Shown: in pieces, positions 18,292 to 26,060 of the stretch
Layout: every line of letters starts with the position of its first letter
Numbering within the stretch: the first letter of the stretch is position 1
The notes under the pieces: model-generated
Told to the model about the DNA's origin: nothing
The model's input: the letters and a program-made list of their open reading frames with translations, nothing else
The model's database searches: none
Translations under genes and position numbers: made by a program
DNA from: Balneolaceae bacterium
GTDB lineage: Bacteria > Bacteroidota > Rhodothermia > Balneolales > Balneolaceae
Length of the DNA stretch: 32,500 bases
Assembly: GCA_007123985.1 (NCBI GenBank)
Contig: SLGA01000085.1
Span: 1-32,500 of the forward strand
Direction: 5' to 3'

Positions 18292-18313
18292 TTATCCACA
18301 CAGATGTTGATAA
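18292..18313. promoter_or_regulatory. Inverted pair of DnaA-box-like sites upstream of ffh
   Basis: TTATCCACA (18292-18300) perfect, and TGTTGATAA (18305-18313) one mismatch on the opposite strand. Confidence 0.4.
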
Positions 18314-18381: not shown

Positions 18382-19722
18382 ATGTTTGAAGATTTGTCTT
18401 CTAAAATAGAATCAGCAGTACAGACCCTAAAGGGTCAGTCGCGTATAACCGATGTTAACATCGCCGAAACCGTGCGGGAAATCCGCCGTGCACTTCTCGA
18501 TGCAGATGTAAACCTTGAGGTAGCCCGCCAGTTTACTAACGACATTAAAGAGACTGTAATGGGCTCTGATGTTCTCACCAGTGTTAATCCCGGGCAACAG
18601 TTCACCAAAATCGTCTATGATGAAATGGTGAAAATTCTGGGTGAAGAGAGAACAGATATCTCAGTAGCTCATACCCCCCCTACTGTAATTTTGGTTGCCG
18701 GCCTTCAGGGATCAGGAAAAACCACGTTTGTGGCAAAACTGGCCCGATACTTAAAGAATGAAAATAACCGGAATCCAATTCTTGCTGCAGCCGATGTTTA
18801 TCGCCCGGCCGCCATCAATCAGTTAAAAACACTTGCGGCCGAGATCAACGTACCTGTTTACTCTATTGAGCAGAAAGATGCCGTACGTGTAGCAAAAGAG
18901 GCTGTCTCCATGGCAAAAAGCCTGGCACTTGATACCGTAATTATTGATACGGCCGGCCGGCTCCATGTAGATGAGAAGATGATGGCTGAAGTAGCGGAAA
19001 TTAAAAAGGCTGTAAATCCTACAGAAATTTTATTCGTTGTGGATGCAATGACCGGCCAGGATGCCGTAAACACAGCCAAGGCCTTCAACGAAACCATCAA
19101 CTTTGATGGTGTTGTACTCTCAAAAATGGATGGTGATACACGAGGCGGTGCCGCCCTTTCAATACGATCGGTGGTTGAAAAACCGATCAAATTTATGAGT
19201 ACGGGCGAAAAGCTGGATGCCCTCTCCCCCTTCTACCCCGACAGACTTGCCCAAAGAATACTTGGTATGGGTGATGTGGTGTCGCTTGTGGAAAAAGCCC
19301 AAAAAGAGTTTGACGAAAAAGAAGCCCAGGATCTTCAGAAAAAGATTCGATCTGAAAAATTCGACCTCGAAGATTTTCTCGAGCAGATTCAGAAGATCAA
19401 AAAGATGGGAAGCATCTCTGATCTGGTCGGTATGATACCCGGCGCAAGCAAAGCTGTTCAGGATGCTGATTTAAGTGAAGATACCTTCAAGCCTATTGAA
19501 GCGATTATCTACTCCATGACACCCGAAGAGCGTGCCGACCCAAGCCTATTGAATGGTAGCCGCAGAAAACGAATTGCAAAAGGTTCGGGAACTACCGTAC
19601 GAGAAATCAACGAGCTGATGAAACAATTTGAACAAATGAAGAAAATGATGAAAACCATGAGCAAGATGGGCAAAATGGGTCGCGCCATGGAAGGACTAAA
19701 AAATCTGCCTTTCGGCAAATAA
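18382..19722 (+). CDS. ffh: Signal recognition particle protein Ffh
   Basis: VILVAGLQGSGKTTFVAKLARYL, AADVYRPAAINQL, DTAGRLHVDEKMM, SKMDGDTRGGAALS, M-domain KGSGTTVREINELMKQFEQMKKMMKTM. Confidence 0.97.
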   Translation: MFEDLSSKIESAVQTLKGQSRITDVNIAETVREIRRALLDADVNLEVARQFTNDIKETVMGSDVLTSVNPGQQFTKIVYDEMVKILGEERTDISVAHTPPTVILVAGLQGSGKTTFVAKLARYLKNENNRNPILAAADVYRPAAINQLKTLAAEINVPVYSIEQKDAVRVAKEAVSMAKSLALDTVIIDTAGRLHVDEKMMAEVAEIKKAVNPTEILFVVDAMTGQDAVNTAKAFNETINFDGVVLSKMDGDTRGGAALSIRSVVEKPIKFMSTGEKLDALSPFYPDRLAQRILGMGDVVSLVEKAQKEFDEKEAQDLQKKIRSEKFDLEDFLEQIQKIKKMGSISDLVGMIPGASKAVQDADLSEDTFKPIEAIIYSMTPEERADPSLLNGSRRKRIAKGSGTTVREINELMKQFEQMKKMMKTMSKMGKMGRAMEGLKNLPFGK

Positions 19723-19808
19723 ACAACGAATGTTTGGCTGTTCTGCAAAGCACGCATTACAGCAACAAAAAAACGTATAGTAAAACATAAACATACAGGA
19801 ACAAACCA

Positions 19809-20762
19809 TTGATTAAATTACGATTACAAAGAAAAGGAAGAAAAAAGAGGCCTTTTTATCACATTGTGGTTGCTGACAGCCGCTCACCACGAGACGGCCG
19901 AATCATCGAAAAACTTGGCCGTTATGATAATGTAAGTGAAAACCAGGAGCTCATCTATGATGAAGAGCGCGTTATTCATTGGCTTAAAATTGGTGCACAG
20001 CCAAGCGATACGGTTCGTAACATCCTTAAACATGAAGGCATTCTTTACAAAATGCACCTGATGCGATGGGGTAAATCTGATGAAGAAATTGAAGCCGCAC
20101 TCGAGGAGTGGAAATCTGCACGGGAAGCTAAAAAATCTGAATCTGTAGTAAGCCGTAAAGCTAAGCAAAAGGATATTCTGAAAGCAGAAGAGCAAGAGTA
20201 CAAAAAACAGCTTGAAGAGAAAGCTGCCGCAGCTGCCAAAGAACTTGAGAAGAAAAAAGAAGCAGAAGAAGCGAAAGCCGCCGAACAGGCTGCAGCTGAA
20301 GCCAAAAAAGAGGAAGCAAAAGCTGAAGAGCCCGCAGCCGAAGTTCCTGTAGCTGAAGAAAAAACAGAGAAGCAAGAAATTAAAACTGAGGAGCCTGCTG
20401 CTGAAGAGGTGAAAGCCGAAGAAACTGAAAAAGCTCCTGTTGAAGAGTCTGTTGAAGCAAAAGAGGAAGAGGCCCCTGTAAAAGAAGAGGAGCCAAAAGA
20501 AGAAGTTAAAGCAGAAGAGACTCCTGCCGAAGAGGAAGCCCCCGCTGAAAAAGAAGAAGTGAAGGCTGAAGAACCAGCTAAAGAAGAAGTTAAAGAGGAT
20601 AGCGCGAAAGCTGAATCAACCCAACTTTCAACCGATATGAACGCCAACGAGGCCATCGACCACATCAAAAACACACCGATTGAAGATCTGAAAGGTTTTG
20701 TGCCTGAAGAAGAAGAGCGTGTTACTGTGCAGCGAGCCTGGGAAAGCAAACAAGAAGAATAA
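19809..20762 (+). CDS. rpsP: 30S ribosomal protein S16 with very long acidic/Lys-Ala C-terminal extension
   Basis: MIKLRLQRKGRKKRPFYHIVVADSRSPRDGRIIEKLGRYD is S16, followed by about 170 aa of low-complexity E/K/A and NANEAIDHIKNTPIEDLKGFVPEEEERVTVQRAWESKQEE. Starts TTG (19809). Confidence 0.93.
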   Translation: MIKLRLQRKGRKKRPFYHIVVADSRSPRDGRIIEKLGRYDNVSENQELIYDEERVIHWLKIGAQPSDTVRNILKHEGILYKMHLMRWGKSDEEIEAALEEWKSAREAKKSESVVSRKAKQKDILKAEEQEYKKQLEEKAAAAAKELEKKKEAEEAKAAEQAAAEAKKEEAKAEEPAAEVPVAEEKTEKQEIKTEEPAAEEVKAEETEKAPVEESVEAKEEEAPVKEEEPKEEVKAEETPAEEEAPAEKEEVKAEEPAKEEVKEDSAKAESTQLSTDMNANEAIDHIKNTPIEDLKGFVPEEEERVTVQRAWESKQEE

Positions 20763-20776
20763 GATAAAAGCCGGCT

Positions 20777-21328
20777 ATGGCACCATTAGCTGATAACCGG
20801 TTTATCGAAATAGGAAGAATCGGAAAACCCCGTGGTCTTGAAGGAGTTGTCCGGTTCATGCCAAACGAAAATTTTACTGATGGTTTGTTTGAACAGGCAG
20901 CGATTCTCTACTTGAGAAACAGCCGGTCTGATTTGGTACCTGCACGCATTACAGATGTGCAAACCGAAGCCAAACGAAACCAGCAGACGTTCTTTGTAAA
21001 ATTTGATATGATTACCGGCCGCAGCGATGCAGAAGCCGCAATGAACAGAGCGCTGTTTGCAGATAGAAATGATATAGAAAATCTGCTTCCGCCTGATCAA
21101 AACGCAGATAGAAACACTGTTGTTGGTTACACAATTTGGTACAATGGTAAAGAGTTTGGTGAAGTTCTGGATATATTTGAAAATCCTGCACATCCCATAA
21201 TCGAAACCCGTAACACTGATGGTGTTGGGTCTTTGTTAATTCCAATGGTTGAGGAGTATATAGAACATACCGATCATGAAAACCACATTGTGTACTGTAA
21301 GAACCTGAATCAGTTAACTGATCTTTAA
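20777..21328 (+). CDS. rimM: 16S rRNA processing protein RimM
   Basis: FIEIGRIGKPRGLEGVVRFMPNE, YTIWYNGKEFGEVLDIFENPAHPIIE, LLIPMVEEYI; position between rpsP and trmD. Confidence 0.94.
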   Translation: MAPLADNRFIEIGRIGKPRGLEGVVRFMPNENFTDGLFEQAAILYLRNSRSDLVPARITDVQTEAKRNQQTFFVKFDMITGRSDAEAAMNRALFADRNDIENLLPPDQNADRNTVVGYTIWYNGKEFGEVLDIFENPAHPIIETRNTDGVGSLLIPMVEEYIEHTDHENHIVYCKNLNQLTDL

Positions 21329-21331
21329 ATT

Positions 21332-22027
21332 ATGCTGAGAATTGATATACTATCAGCCGTTCCGGATCTTTTAAATAGTCCGCTTGAACACAGCATAATA
21401 GGCAGAGCCCGGGAAAACAGACTGATTCACATTGAGATCCACGATCTTCGTGATTATTCTGCTAACCGCCATAAAAAAGTTGATGATTATCAATATGGAG
21501 GCGGTGCAGGAATGGTTTTAACACCACAACCCATTTTCGACTGCATTGAAAAGCTAACATCAGAACGTGCTTATGATGAAATAATATTTACTGCACCGGA
21601 TGGAGAACTATTTGAACAAAAACATGCAAATGAACTCTCCATCAAACAAAATCTGATGATTTTATGTGGCCATTATAAAGGAATAGACCAGCGGGTTCGG
21701 GACGAACTGATATCCCGTGAATTTTCCATAGGAGATTATGTGCTTTCCGGTGGTGAACTGCCTGCAATGGTAATAGCTGATGCAATAACACGGCTGCTGC
21801 CCGGAGCACTGGGAGATTCCGAAAGCGCTCTTTCTGATTCATTTCAGGATGACCTGTTGGAAGCGCCCGTTTATACACGACCGGCAGAATTCAAGGGCCT
21901 TAAAGTTCCTGAAGTTTTGCGATCCGGTGATCATAAAAAAGTAGACCAATGGCGTTTTGATACCGCATTGGAACGAACAAAACAAAGAAGACCAGATTTA
22001 TACAACCATTTTAAAAAGAAAAACTAA
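21332..22027 (+). CDS. trmD: tRNA (guanine37-N1)-methyltransferase TrmD
   Basis: [68 protein letters not shown]. Confidence 0.97.
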
Positions 22028-22050
22028 AGCCCAGTAACAAGGATACAACC

Positions 22051-22419
22051 ATGGATAAAATTAAATTAGTTGAACAGACCGTTGTACGCGATGACCTGCC
22101 ACAATTTAAAGCAGGTGATACAGTAAACGTTCATTACCGAGTAAGGGAAGGTGAGAAAGAGCGTATTCAGCAGTATGAAGGCGTTGTTATCAACGAACGA
22201 GGAAGCGGATCAAACAAAACCTTTATTGTGCGGAAAATGTCGGGCAGTGTGGGTGTTGAACGTATTTTCCCGCTATACTCTCCTTTTATCGCAAAAATTG
22301 AAGTGAAAAAGCGCGGTAAAGTGAGACGTTCCAAACTGTTCTATCTCAGAGACCTTCGCGGTAAAGCGGCTCGAATTAAAGAGAAAGAGTCCGTGAATAC
22401 CAAAAAGAAAAAAGATTAA
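22051..22419 (+). CDS. rplS: 50S ribosomal protein L19
   Basis: [74 protein letters not shown]. Confidence 0.97.
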
Positions 22420-23250: not shown

Positions 23251-24143
23251 TCTTTACCCAACACAGCCAGAATACCAGGGGTTACGTCAAGAATGCTATT
23301 TGCATTTAAAAATGGCCCTGTTTCTCCATGAACAAAAAGTGGTACCGGGTTTCGGGTATGGGTTTTGGTAGATAAATCTTCGATATTGCCGTGATCGCTG
23401 CAAATCACCAATGTATCAGCCGGTTTCTTGTTTTTGATAATATGAATAAGAAATCGGTCGAGTACTTTAAGAACCTGATCCGCCGTATCTCTCTTTTGCG
23501 AGTGCCCGGCCTTATCGGTGAGGTAATACTCATAAAGAACCAGATCGTACATTTCAAGTGCGTTGAGAGCTCTTTCTGATGCATCTTCAGGTTTAATGGA
23601 AGGCACATCAAGGTTTAACATACTTCGCCAGGCAGATTGAACGATTTCTGCTGTAATGGCTCGCTCTTGCAAAACATCTTCAAGCCGGTTTAGAGGTAGT
23701 CCGGCAGATTTTGTCATAAGTGTGGTGCAGCTCCAGCGGTTTCTTTTTTCTGACTTTTCGAAAAAAATATCCGGATAGGCATTTAAGAAATGAGGATTTT
23801 TACCCATTGTTAAAGCTTTGTGAAACAGGCTTTTTTTCTGAAGAAGCGGTTTAATTTTAGAATGAGGAAACGGCCCAAAATGCTTTCCTATTTTTTTTGA
23901 TGCGTTGATCCCGGTAAAAAGTGTAGTCTGCCCTGTTCCGCTTTGTGGCAATCCGTCTACATCCAGGTTAGCATCTGTTTTTTTAAATAAGATGCTGTTT
24001 TCATCTCTATTTACGCACTCTTCATGCACTCCGTTGCTCTTAGTAAAAAAAGAGAATGAAACAAGATTTTCTGTGGCTAACGGATTTAGAGATGAGTTTT
24101 CACCAATTCCAAAACCATCCACAAATACAAAAAGTACTGCCAT
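23247..24143 (-). CDS. Alkaline-phosphatase/phosphoglycerate-mutase-superfamily metalloenzyme
   Basis: LFVFVDGFGIGENSSLNP, LPQSGTGQTTLFTGINASKKIGKHFGPFPH, YYLTDKAGHSQ, VICSDHGNIEDLSTKTHTRNPVPLFVHG. Confidence 0.8.
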   Translation of the reverse strand: MAVLFVFVDGFGIGENSSLNPLATENLVSFSFFTKSNGVHEECVNRDENSILFKKTDANLDVDGLPQSGTGQTTLFTGINASKKIGKHFGPFPHSKIKPLLQKKSLFHKALTMGKNPHFLNAYPDIFFEKSEKRNRWSCTTLMTKSAGLPLNRLEDVLQERAITAEIVQSAWRSMLNLDVPSIKPEDASERALNALEMYDLVLYEYYLTDKAGHSQKRDTADQVLKVLDRFLIHIIKNKKPADTLVICSDHGNIEDLSTKTHTRNPVPLFVHGETGPFLNANSILDVTPGILAVLGKD

Positions 24144-24583
24144 TACTTCTCCAGTATCAGTGTAACGGGGCCATCGTTCACAAGCTCAACATCCATCATA
24201 GCACCAAACTCACCTGATTGCACATTCAAATTACTCTCTGTTCTTAATTTTTCAATCATATAATCATACAGAGGTTCGGCAGTTTCTGGACGGGCCGCTT
24301 CTATGAAACTGGGTCTGGTTCCTTTTTTTGAATTTCCATAGAGCGTAAACTGTGAAACCACCAAAAGACCTCCATTGATATCTTTCACTGATCGATTCAT
24401 CTTTCCCTCATCATCCTCAAAAACTCGGAGCTTAGGAATCTTTGTACAACACCAGTCAGCTTGTTCTTTTGTATCTGTTTCATGAATACCAGCAAGCAGT
24501 AATAATCCTCTCTCAATTTTACCTGTTATGTTACCGTTTATGGTTACTGACGCTCTGCTTACTCGCTGAATGACTATTCTCAT
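24143..24583 (-). CDS. dtd: D-aminoacyl-tRNA deacylase
   Basis: MRIVIQRVSRASVTINGNITGKIERGLLLLAGI, KLRVFEDDEGKMNRSVKDINGGLLVVSQFTLYGNSKKGTRPSF. The internal Met at 24583 is the likely start; the ORF track extends upstream to 24673. Confidence 0.95.
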   Translation of the reverse strand: MRIVIQRVSRASVTINGNITGKIERGLLLLAGIHETDTKEQADWCCTKIPKLRVFEDDEGKMNRSVKDINGGLLVVSQFTLYGNSKKGTRPSFIEAARPETAEPLYDYMIEKLRTESNLNVQSGEFGAMMDVELVNDGPVTLILEK

Positions 24584-24596
24584 ATGTGGGAAACTA

Positions 24597-24946
24597 TGTG
24601 GATAATGTTGCTTTTTGATGTTAGTAACAAAATTAAAACAGTTTTCATGTAATCTATCCACATTGATTAACAATTAAAACCGGTTATCCACATTGAAAAA
24701 GAATAACTTTTCGTGTGGATGAAACAGATGTATGGTATAGGTGTAAAAAATATGGAATGTTAATTACTGCTATTTAAAAAATATAAAGCATTGTTTTTTA
24801 ATAATTAGTTATTCACATATTTATTAACAATCAGAGAAGAGTTATACAATCTGTTCTAATAAAAAAGTTATACACTTCTTAACACTGTTCTACTACTATA
24901 CTACAAAATTTACAATCCAATACTTTTCGTTAACTCCTGTGGATAA
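24597..24946. promoter_or_regulatory. Candidate oriC: DnaA-box cluster in AT-rich dtd-purM intergenic region
   Basis: Perfect TTATCCACA at 24597-24605 (-), 24684-24692 (+), 24938-24946 (-). One mismatch at 24654-24662 (+), 24714-24722 (-), 24809-24817 (+). Two mismatches at 24842-24850 and 24868-24876. AT-rich core about 24770-24900. Confidence 0.65.
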
Positions 24947-25055
24947 CCTGAACCATTTAGTTAAAATGTAAAGTTTTAATCTTTCTATCTTTCTGATCAA
25001 TTGTGATAATTTCCATTTACCAGTAAATTTTTAAACCGTTTAAACAAGTTCTACA

Positions 25056-26060
25056 GTGTCAGAAAAAAAATATACTTACAAAGATTCCGGAGTTGATATT
25101 AAAGCAGGAGAAGAACTTGTTAACTCAATTAAAGATGTGGTTAAAGAGACTCATAATGCAAATGTTCTGAGTAATATTGGAGGATTTGGCGGACTCTTTT
25201 CAGCTAATTTTACCTCTCTTAAAAATCCCGTTCTGGTAAGTAGTGTAGATGGTGTGGGGACCAAGCTAATTGTAGCATTTAAAGCCCGTATATATGATAC
25301 TGTTGGCCAGGATCTTGTGAACCACTGTGTGAATGACATTGCAGTTTGCGGTGCAGATCCGCTTTTTTTTCTCGACTATTTTTCAACAGGAAAACTGGAA
25401 CAGAACATAGGCTACGATGTAATTAAAGGATTTGCCAAAGCGTGTAAAGAAAATGGGGTAGCATTAATTGGTGGTGAAACTGCCGAAATGCCGGATATCT
25501 ATAAAAAGGGTGAGTTTGATCTGGCAGGAACCGTAGTTGGTGTTGTTGACAGAGATAAACTGATTACCGGTGAAAACATAAAAAAAGGTGATCTGCTTCT
25601 TGGTTTCAAAAGCACAGGACTGCACACAAACGGATACTCTTTGGCGCGAAAGGTACTCTTCAGTAAATTTGATATTAATGATAAACCCGATGAACTAAAA
25701 AACAGCATTGGAGAGGAACTTCTGCAGGTTCATAAATCATATCTGTCATTGATAAAGAAATTAAGAGAAACAGATGGGGTAAATGGATTTTCGCACATTA
25801 CCGGTGGTGGCATTGAGGGAAATACAAAACGAATTTTACCGGATGGATATAAACTTTCTGTTGATTGGAACAGCTGGGAACGTCCTGCAATATTCAAATT
25901 GATTCAAAAAACAGGAAATGTACCCGAAGAGGATATGCAGGCAACTTTTAATCTTGGAATAGGTATGATAGCTGTAGTTTCCAAGGATAAAGCTGATACC
26001 ATCCAAAATATTTGTAAAACGATTGGTGAAGAGGCAGTAATTATCGGGAATGTTGTCTGA
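25056..26060 (+). CDS. purM: Phosphoribosylformylglycinamidine cyclo-ligase
   Basis: YKDSGVDIKAGEELVNSIK, LVSSVDGVGTKLIVAF, DLVNHCVNDIAVCGADPLFFLDYFSTG, LIGGETAEMPDIY, GLHTNGYSLAR, HITGGGIEGN. GTG start. Confidence 0.96.
   Translation: MSEKKYTYKDSGVDIKAGEELVNSIKDVVKETHNANVLSNIGGFGGLFSANFTSLKNPVLVSSVDGVGTKLIVAFKARIYDTVGQDLVNHCVNDIAVCGADPLFFLDYFSTGKLEQNIGYDVIKGFAKACKENGVALIGGETAEMPDIYKKGEFDLAGTVVGVVDRDKLITGENIKKGDLLLGFKSTGLHTNGYSLARKVLFSKFDINDKPDELKNSIGEELLQVHKSYLSLIKKLRETDGVNGFSHITGGGIEGNTKRILPDGYKLSVDWNSWERPAIFKLIQKTGNVPEEDMQATFNLGIGMIAVVSKDKADTIQNICKTIGEEAVIIGNVV

Follow-up and report, generated by a model that had tools for sequence, protein, structure and literature searches.

A putative replication origin between dtd and purM, unlinked from dnaA, in the order Balneolales

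The chromosomal origin of Escherichia coli (oriC, in the gidA/mnmG-mioC region) is located away from dnaA. The candidate origin described here for Balneolales shares with it the separation of origin and dnaA but differs in its neighbours, which are dtd and purM, the mnmG-rsmG genes lying 16 kb and 27 kb off in two relatives (G043 and G059, respectively). With regard to the basal unwinding system (BUS), the closest described system is oriC/incC of Bacillus subtilis, which has tandem DnaA boxes, a short spacer and three 3'-GAT-5' DnaA-trios (PMC6669920, PMC8287927). By its published definition, a BUS has three or more trios (3'-NAN-5'), no farther than 16 bp from a DnaA box; tandem boxes are common, and the box-to-trio spacer peaks at 10-13 bp (PMC8287927). 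The kind of system is known, whereas its order-wide location away from dnaA appears to be undescribed in the open-access papers that we searched; the same search, which left origin databases such as DoriC outside, returned no description of a Balneolales origin.

The analyzed window is an entire contig of 32.5 kb (G000:C100) from a Balneolaceae genome of 2.99 Mb that is 85% complete and divided into 346 contigs. The nearest named relatives by purM are Balneolaceae, and the genome was accordingly assigned to Balneolales. Based on computational evidence, we estimate the probability that the gap between dtd and purM (positions 24584-25055) is the chromosomal replication origin at roughly 94%. This region, delimited by open reading frames and protein families and enriched in DnaA boxes, is flanked by the divergent genes dtd, encoding D-aminoacyl-tRNA deacylase (24143-24583, minus strand, ATG at 24583; TIGR00256, 192.9 bits), and purM, encoding phosphoribosylformylglycinamidine cyclo-ligase (25056-26060, plus strand, GTG at 25056; TIGR00878, 383.5 bits). 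The non-coding gap of 470 bp that a sequence-only reading had interpreted as oriC measures 472 bp, and curated models confirm both genes. Close to it, the ffh-rpsP-rimM-trmD-rplS genes (18382-22419) are directed towards the putative origin and would oppose a leftward fork head-on. Immediately upstream of ffh (18382), a perfect DnaA box is accompanied by one in inverted orientation with a single mismatch (18292-18313). The rpsP product (19809-20762) has 317 amino acids, much exceeding the S16 domain, and the AT skew of the surrounding stretch reaches about 0.39.

The sequence-only reading listed six DnaA boxes, three of them perfect and three with one mismatch, and all are present, on both strands. 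The perfect boxes (TTATCCACA) occupy 24597-24605 (minus strand, at a conserved position), 24684-24692 (plus) and 24938-24946 (minus); the GTGGA core of the last one is invariant in alignment A1. The one-mismatch boxes are CTATCCACA at 24654-24662 (plus) and TTATTCACA at 24809-24817 (plus), both within conserved blocks, and TCATCCACA at 24714-24722 (minus). Weaker boxes, which had also been noted, were found with two mismatches at 24585 (minus), at 24821-24829 (plus; TTATTAACA, in a conserved block) and at 24868 (plus). The AT-rich stretch noted earlier is real as well: positions 24772-24871 have the lowest nearest-neighbour stability of any 100 bp in the window (rank 0), providing the easily opened segment, as computed from sequence, that is expected of a bacterial oriC.

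What the earlier reading overlooked is the core of the putative origin, a module in which DnaA boxes in tandem precede CTACTACTA (24868-24898, plus strand). The first BUS box (TTATACACT, 24868-24876), recognized from the sequence, alignment A1 and the strict pattern described below, has two mismatches and is TTATnnACA-like in relatives. The second, degenerate box (TTCTTAACA, 24876-24884; NTNTCCACA in the aligned relatives) has three and overlaps the first by one base, so that both BUS boxes are weak in the window species. The trios at 24890-24898 lie in conserved CTA columns and read 3'-GAT-GAT-GAT-5' on the minus strand, the predicted DnaA-bound strand. They stand 13 bp past the first box, a spacer that contains the degenerate second box. 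The module thereby fits the published BUS definition, with DnaA-dependent strand separation as a prediction. It resembles the B. subtilis BUS in its tandem boxes, short spacer and three 3'-GAT-5' trios, and its 13-bp spacer is inside both the reported peak and the 16-bp limit. It differs from the latter in being situated away from dnaA and in its boxes, which are degenerate and overlap by one base here. Beyond the trios there is an AT-rich spacer (24899-24937), the predicted opening site, and the perfect box at 24938-24946 opposes the trios from its far side. If the B. subtilis BUS model applies, DnaA would load onto the flanking boxes, and the tandem boxes at 24868-24884 would seat a DnaA oligomer. 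This oligomer would then extend onto the trios and stretch the trio strand, and the AT-rich spacer would open for helicase loading, giving rise to two forks.

The arrangement of dtd, DnaA boxes and purM was sought in relatives and recurs in Balneolales, where 3-12 boxes are usually present in the divergent gap, no more than 600 bp from purM; in longer gaps the boxes are placed at the dtd end. Outside Balneolales, the region upstream of purM has no box cluster (none or one box), and purM alone therefore does not mark an origin. In alignments of the Balneolales gaps, the conserved blocks are DnaA-box-like sites and one further motif, TTAT--ACAT-TCCACA-n-CTACTACTA, while the linkers drift. The invariant columns of alignment A1 include box-core positions, CTA and the GTGGA of the inverted box. 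A strict pattern was matched in 54 of 129 Balneolales genomes, nearly always once, compared to 5 for the reversed control. Among the 30 loci fetched, 29 adjoin dtd, and their distance from it is nearly constant; the remaining one (L230) comes from a genome with two matches (G082), of which the other carries the typical module sequence. We also built an 83-bp model of the module from 24 Balneolales sequences. This model detects the window's module with an E-value of 7.8e-17 (the window being one of the 24 training sequences) and has matches in 111 of the 129 genomes, usually one per genome, including 78 of the 84 good ones. The remaining 18, some of which are incomplete, gave no match to the model. 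The constant neighbour of the module in Balneolales is dtd, whereas purM, the usual right neighbour, has been displaced in a few relatives: G017 and G020 keep the module with dtd but carry purM on another contig. An additional gene separates the module from purM in G012, G005, G030 and others. The inserts at six such loci (L008, L013, L026, L029, L031 and L034) have about 170-290 codons and are of at least two unrelated kinds.

The genome under study, divided among 346 contigs, is too fragmented for a GC-skew curve, and the window by itself is too short and its skew too noisy to be decisive. The skew was read in sampled stretches of the chromosomes of three relatives (G012, G059 and G043). The switch of skew sign that had been proposed as a check of the origin occurs at or near the gap, clearly in G012 and G059 and noisily in G043. 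In G012, which belongs to the same genus, the skew averages -0.042 over the samples as far as 900 kb and +0.045 over those past it, a difference matched by none of 20,000 permutations. The best change point falls between the 880- and 900-kb samples, with a local cumulative minimum at 901,171; the module is at 894,861-894,942, and dnaA at 533 kb. In G059 (chromosome record CP051242.1), the skew is negative to about 270 kb, passes through a plateau that contains the segment minimum (283 kb), and is positive from 320 kb. Here the best change point is between the 310- and 320-kb bins, and the module is at 320 kb, where its box cluster is the densest of 400 kb; dnaA, at 3.62 Mb, is about 449 kb away round the circle. 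In G043, a single contig with the module at 270 kb and dnaA at 289 bp, the skew is negative to 260 kb, turns positive at 260-280 kb and is then mixed, mostly positive; the change-point fit ranks 426-500 kb first and 260-280 kb second. None of these three genomes has a skew switch at dnaA in the sampled data.

Proximity of parS, which is usual for bacterial origins although not required, was also observed in relatives. Consensus parS sites were found in 19 of 26 relatives, one or two per genome, with no matches for the reversed control; the whole-genome search with the strict consensus found none in the other seven. In all 15 genomes with both elements on one contig, parS is 8-68 kb from the module, while its distance from dnaA, in the eight of these whose contig also holds dnaA, is 159-737 kb. 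No parS was found in the window or in the G059 and G012 samples, and the whole-genome search found none in G098, apparently the same assembly as G059. The genome under study has two perfect parS sites in rsmG, adjoining mnmG, on a contig other than that of the window. These two sites (L366:986-1639) are 154 bp apart, one of them at the very start of rsmG.

The statements of the sequence-only reading that dnaA is missing from the window and that the origin would not adjoin it were both borne out, as dnaA is on another contig (C184) and is 150-800 kb from the module in relatives; adjacency to dnaA is common among bacterial origins but not required. One could still suppose that replication starts at dnaA, where adjacency would follow the common bacterial pattern, and that the dtd-purM cluster is a DnaA-titration site. 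The region upstream of dnaA in Balneolales indeed mostly carries three to four boxes of the same orientation, often perfect, at constant positions. However, it has no CTACTACTA trios, no skew switch accompanies it in the three relatives, and parS is remote from it in the eight genomes mentioned above. Moreover, a conserved block that resembles a promoter, TTTGA..CATTTT, is interspersed with its boxes (L112:1-372 and aligned regions); this fits autoregulation of dnaA, which is probably what the boxes serve. We therefore rejected an origin at dnaA, on skew, parS and missing trios, as very improbable. 

The boxes could alternatively be DnaA operators controlling dtd and/or purM, given that the gap is the promoter region of two divergent genes and that DnaA boxes precede other genes too, namely dnaA and, in G043, a ribonucleotide-reductase-like gene. 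This explanation accounts neither for the two box orientations and the trios nor for the skew switch; furthermore, the module keeps to dtd where purM is displaced or a gene has been inserted, and the same module adjoins unrelated genes in Rhodothermales. We regard it as more improbable still. The G043 cluster itself (L220:2120-2396, about 4.262 Mb) comprises six DnaA boxes without trios upstream of that gene, whose label was judged from sequence alone; as all its boxes point in one direction and the gene is downstream, this second cluster was set aside as regulatory. With an AT content of about 73%, the dtd-purM gap might also be expected to accumulate boxes by chance. But composition-matched dinucleotide shuffles of the gap gave on average 0.22 boxes with up to one mismatch and at most 3, with none of 5000 reaching six, and among 300 shuffled versions of the whole window, a single one reached four boxes within 350 bp, the highest count. 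The earlier expectation of a cluster improbable by chance is upheld, as is typical of non-coding box clusters at bacterial oriC; together with the order-level conservation, the shuffles refute a chance cluster, whose probability is negligible. For the dtd-purM gap, the elements in its sequence and their conservation, together with the skew switch and the proximity of parS in relatives, converge on a predicted function as oriC, in agreement with the earlier reading and with the unlinking from dnaA. Judged from these features, it is almost certainly an ordinary DnaA-type origin, whose location is lineage-specific and unlinked from dnaA across Balneolales.

Weaker matches to the module model also occur in many other Rhodothermia genomes. 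The sister order Rhodothermales carries the same module in the form TTATCCACATATCCACAG-n-CTACTACTAC. The putative origins of this order, as deduced in the present analysis, differ from those of Balneolales in their neighbours: these include pgi, together with comEC or a universal-stress (usp) gene, and in some cases other genes instead. Outside Balneolales the distance to dnaA varies: it is 8 kb in Longimonas, and in others dnaA is far away. One sister genome, G061 (KatS3mg041), yielded no module; its skew switches between 910 and 980 kb, with mnmG-rsmG nearby (902 kb). Three Rhodothermia genomes (G246, G247 and G223) have two DnaA-family genes above the curated cut-off, and G246 and G247 show module matches on both strands at a single site. 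The overall pattern suggests that the gene neighbourhood has turned over around an old module. We tentatively propose, at somewhat below even odds, that the module is ancient in Rhodothermia and that, at the base of Balneolales, dtd/purM replaced pgi/comEC/usp as its neighbours; parS-mnmG-rsmG would have remained nearby, and dnaA would have lost its linkage to the origin. If true, the relocation of an origin and its separation from dnaA could be traced within one bacterial class.

Our results add Balneolales and Rhodothermales to the groups with a DnaA-trio module and point to a clade in which dnaA and the putative origin came apart. For the whole order Balneolales, they provide a precise, testable predicted origin. 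Estimating growth rates from metagenomes and orienting assemblies both require the position of the origin, and orientation based on dnaA would miss it by 150-800 kb in Balneolales.
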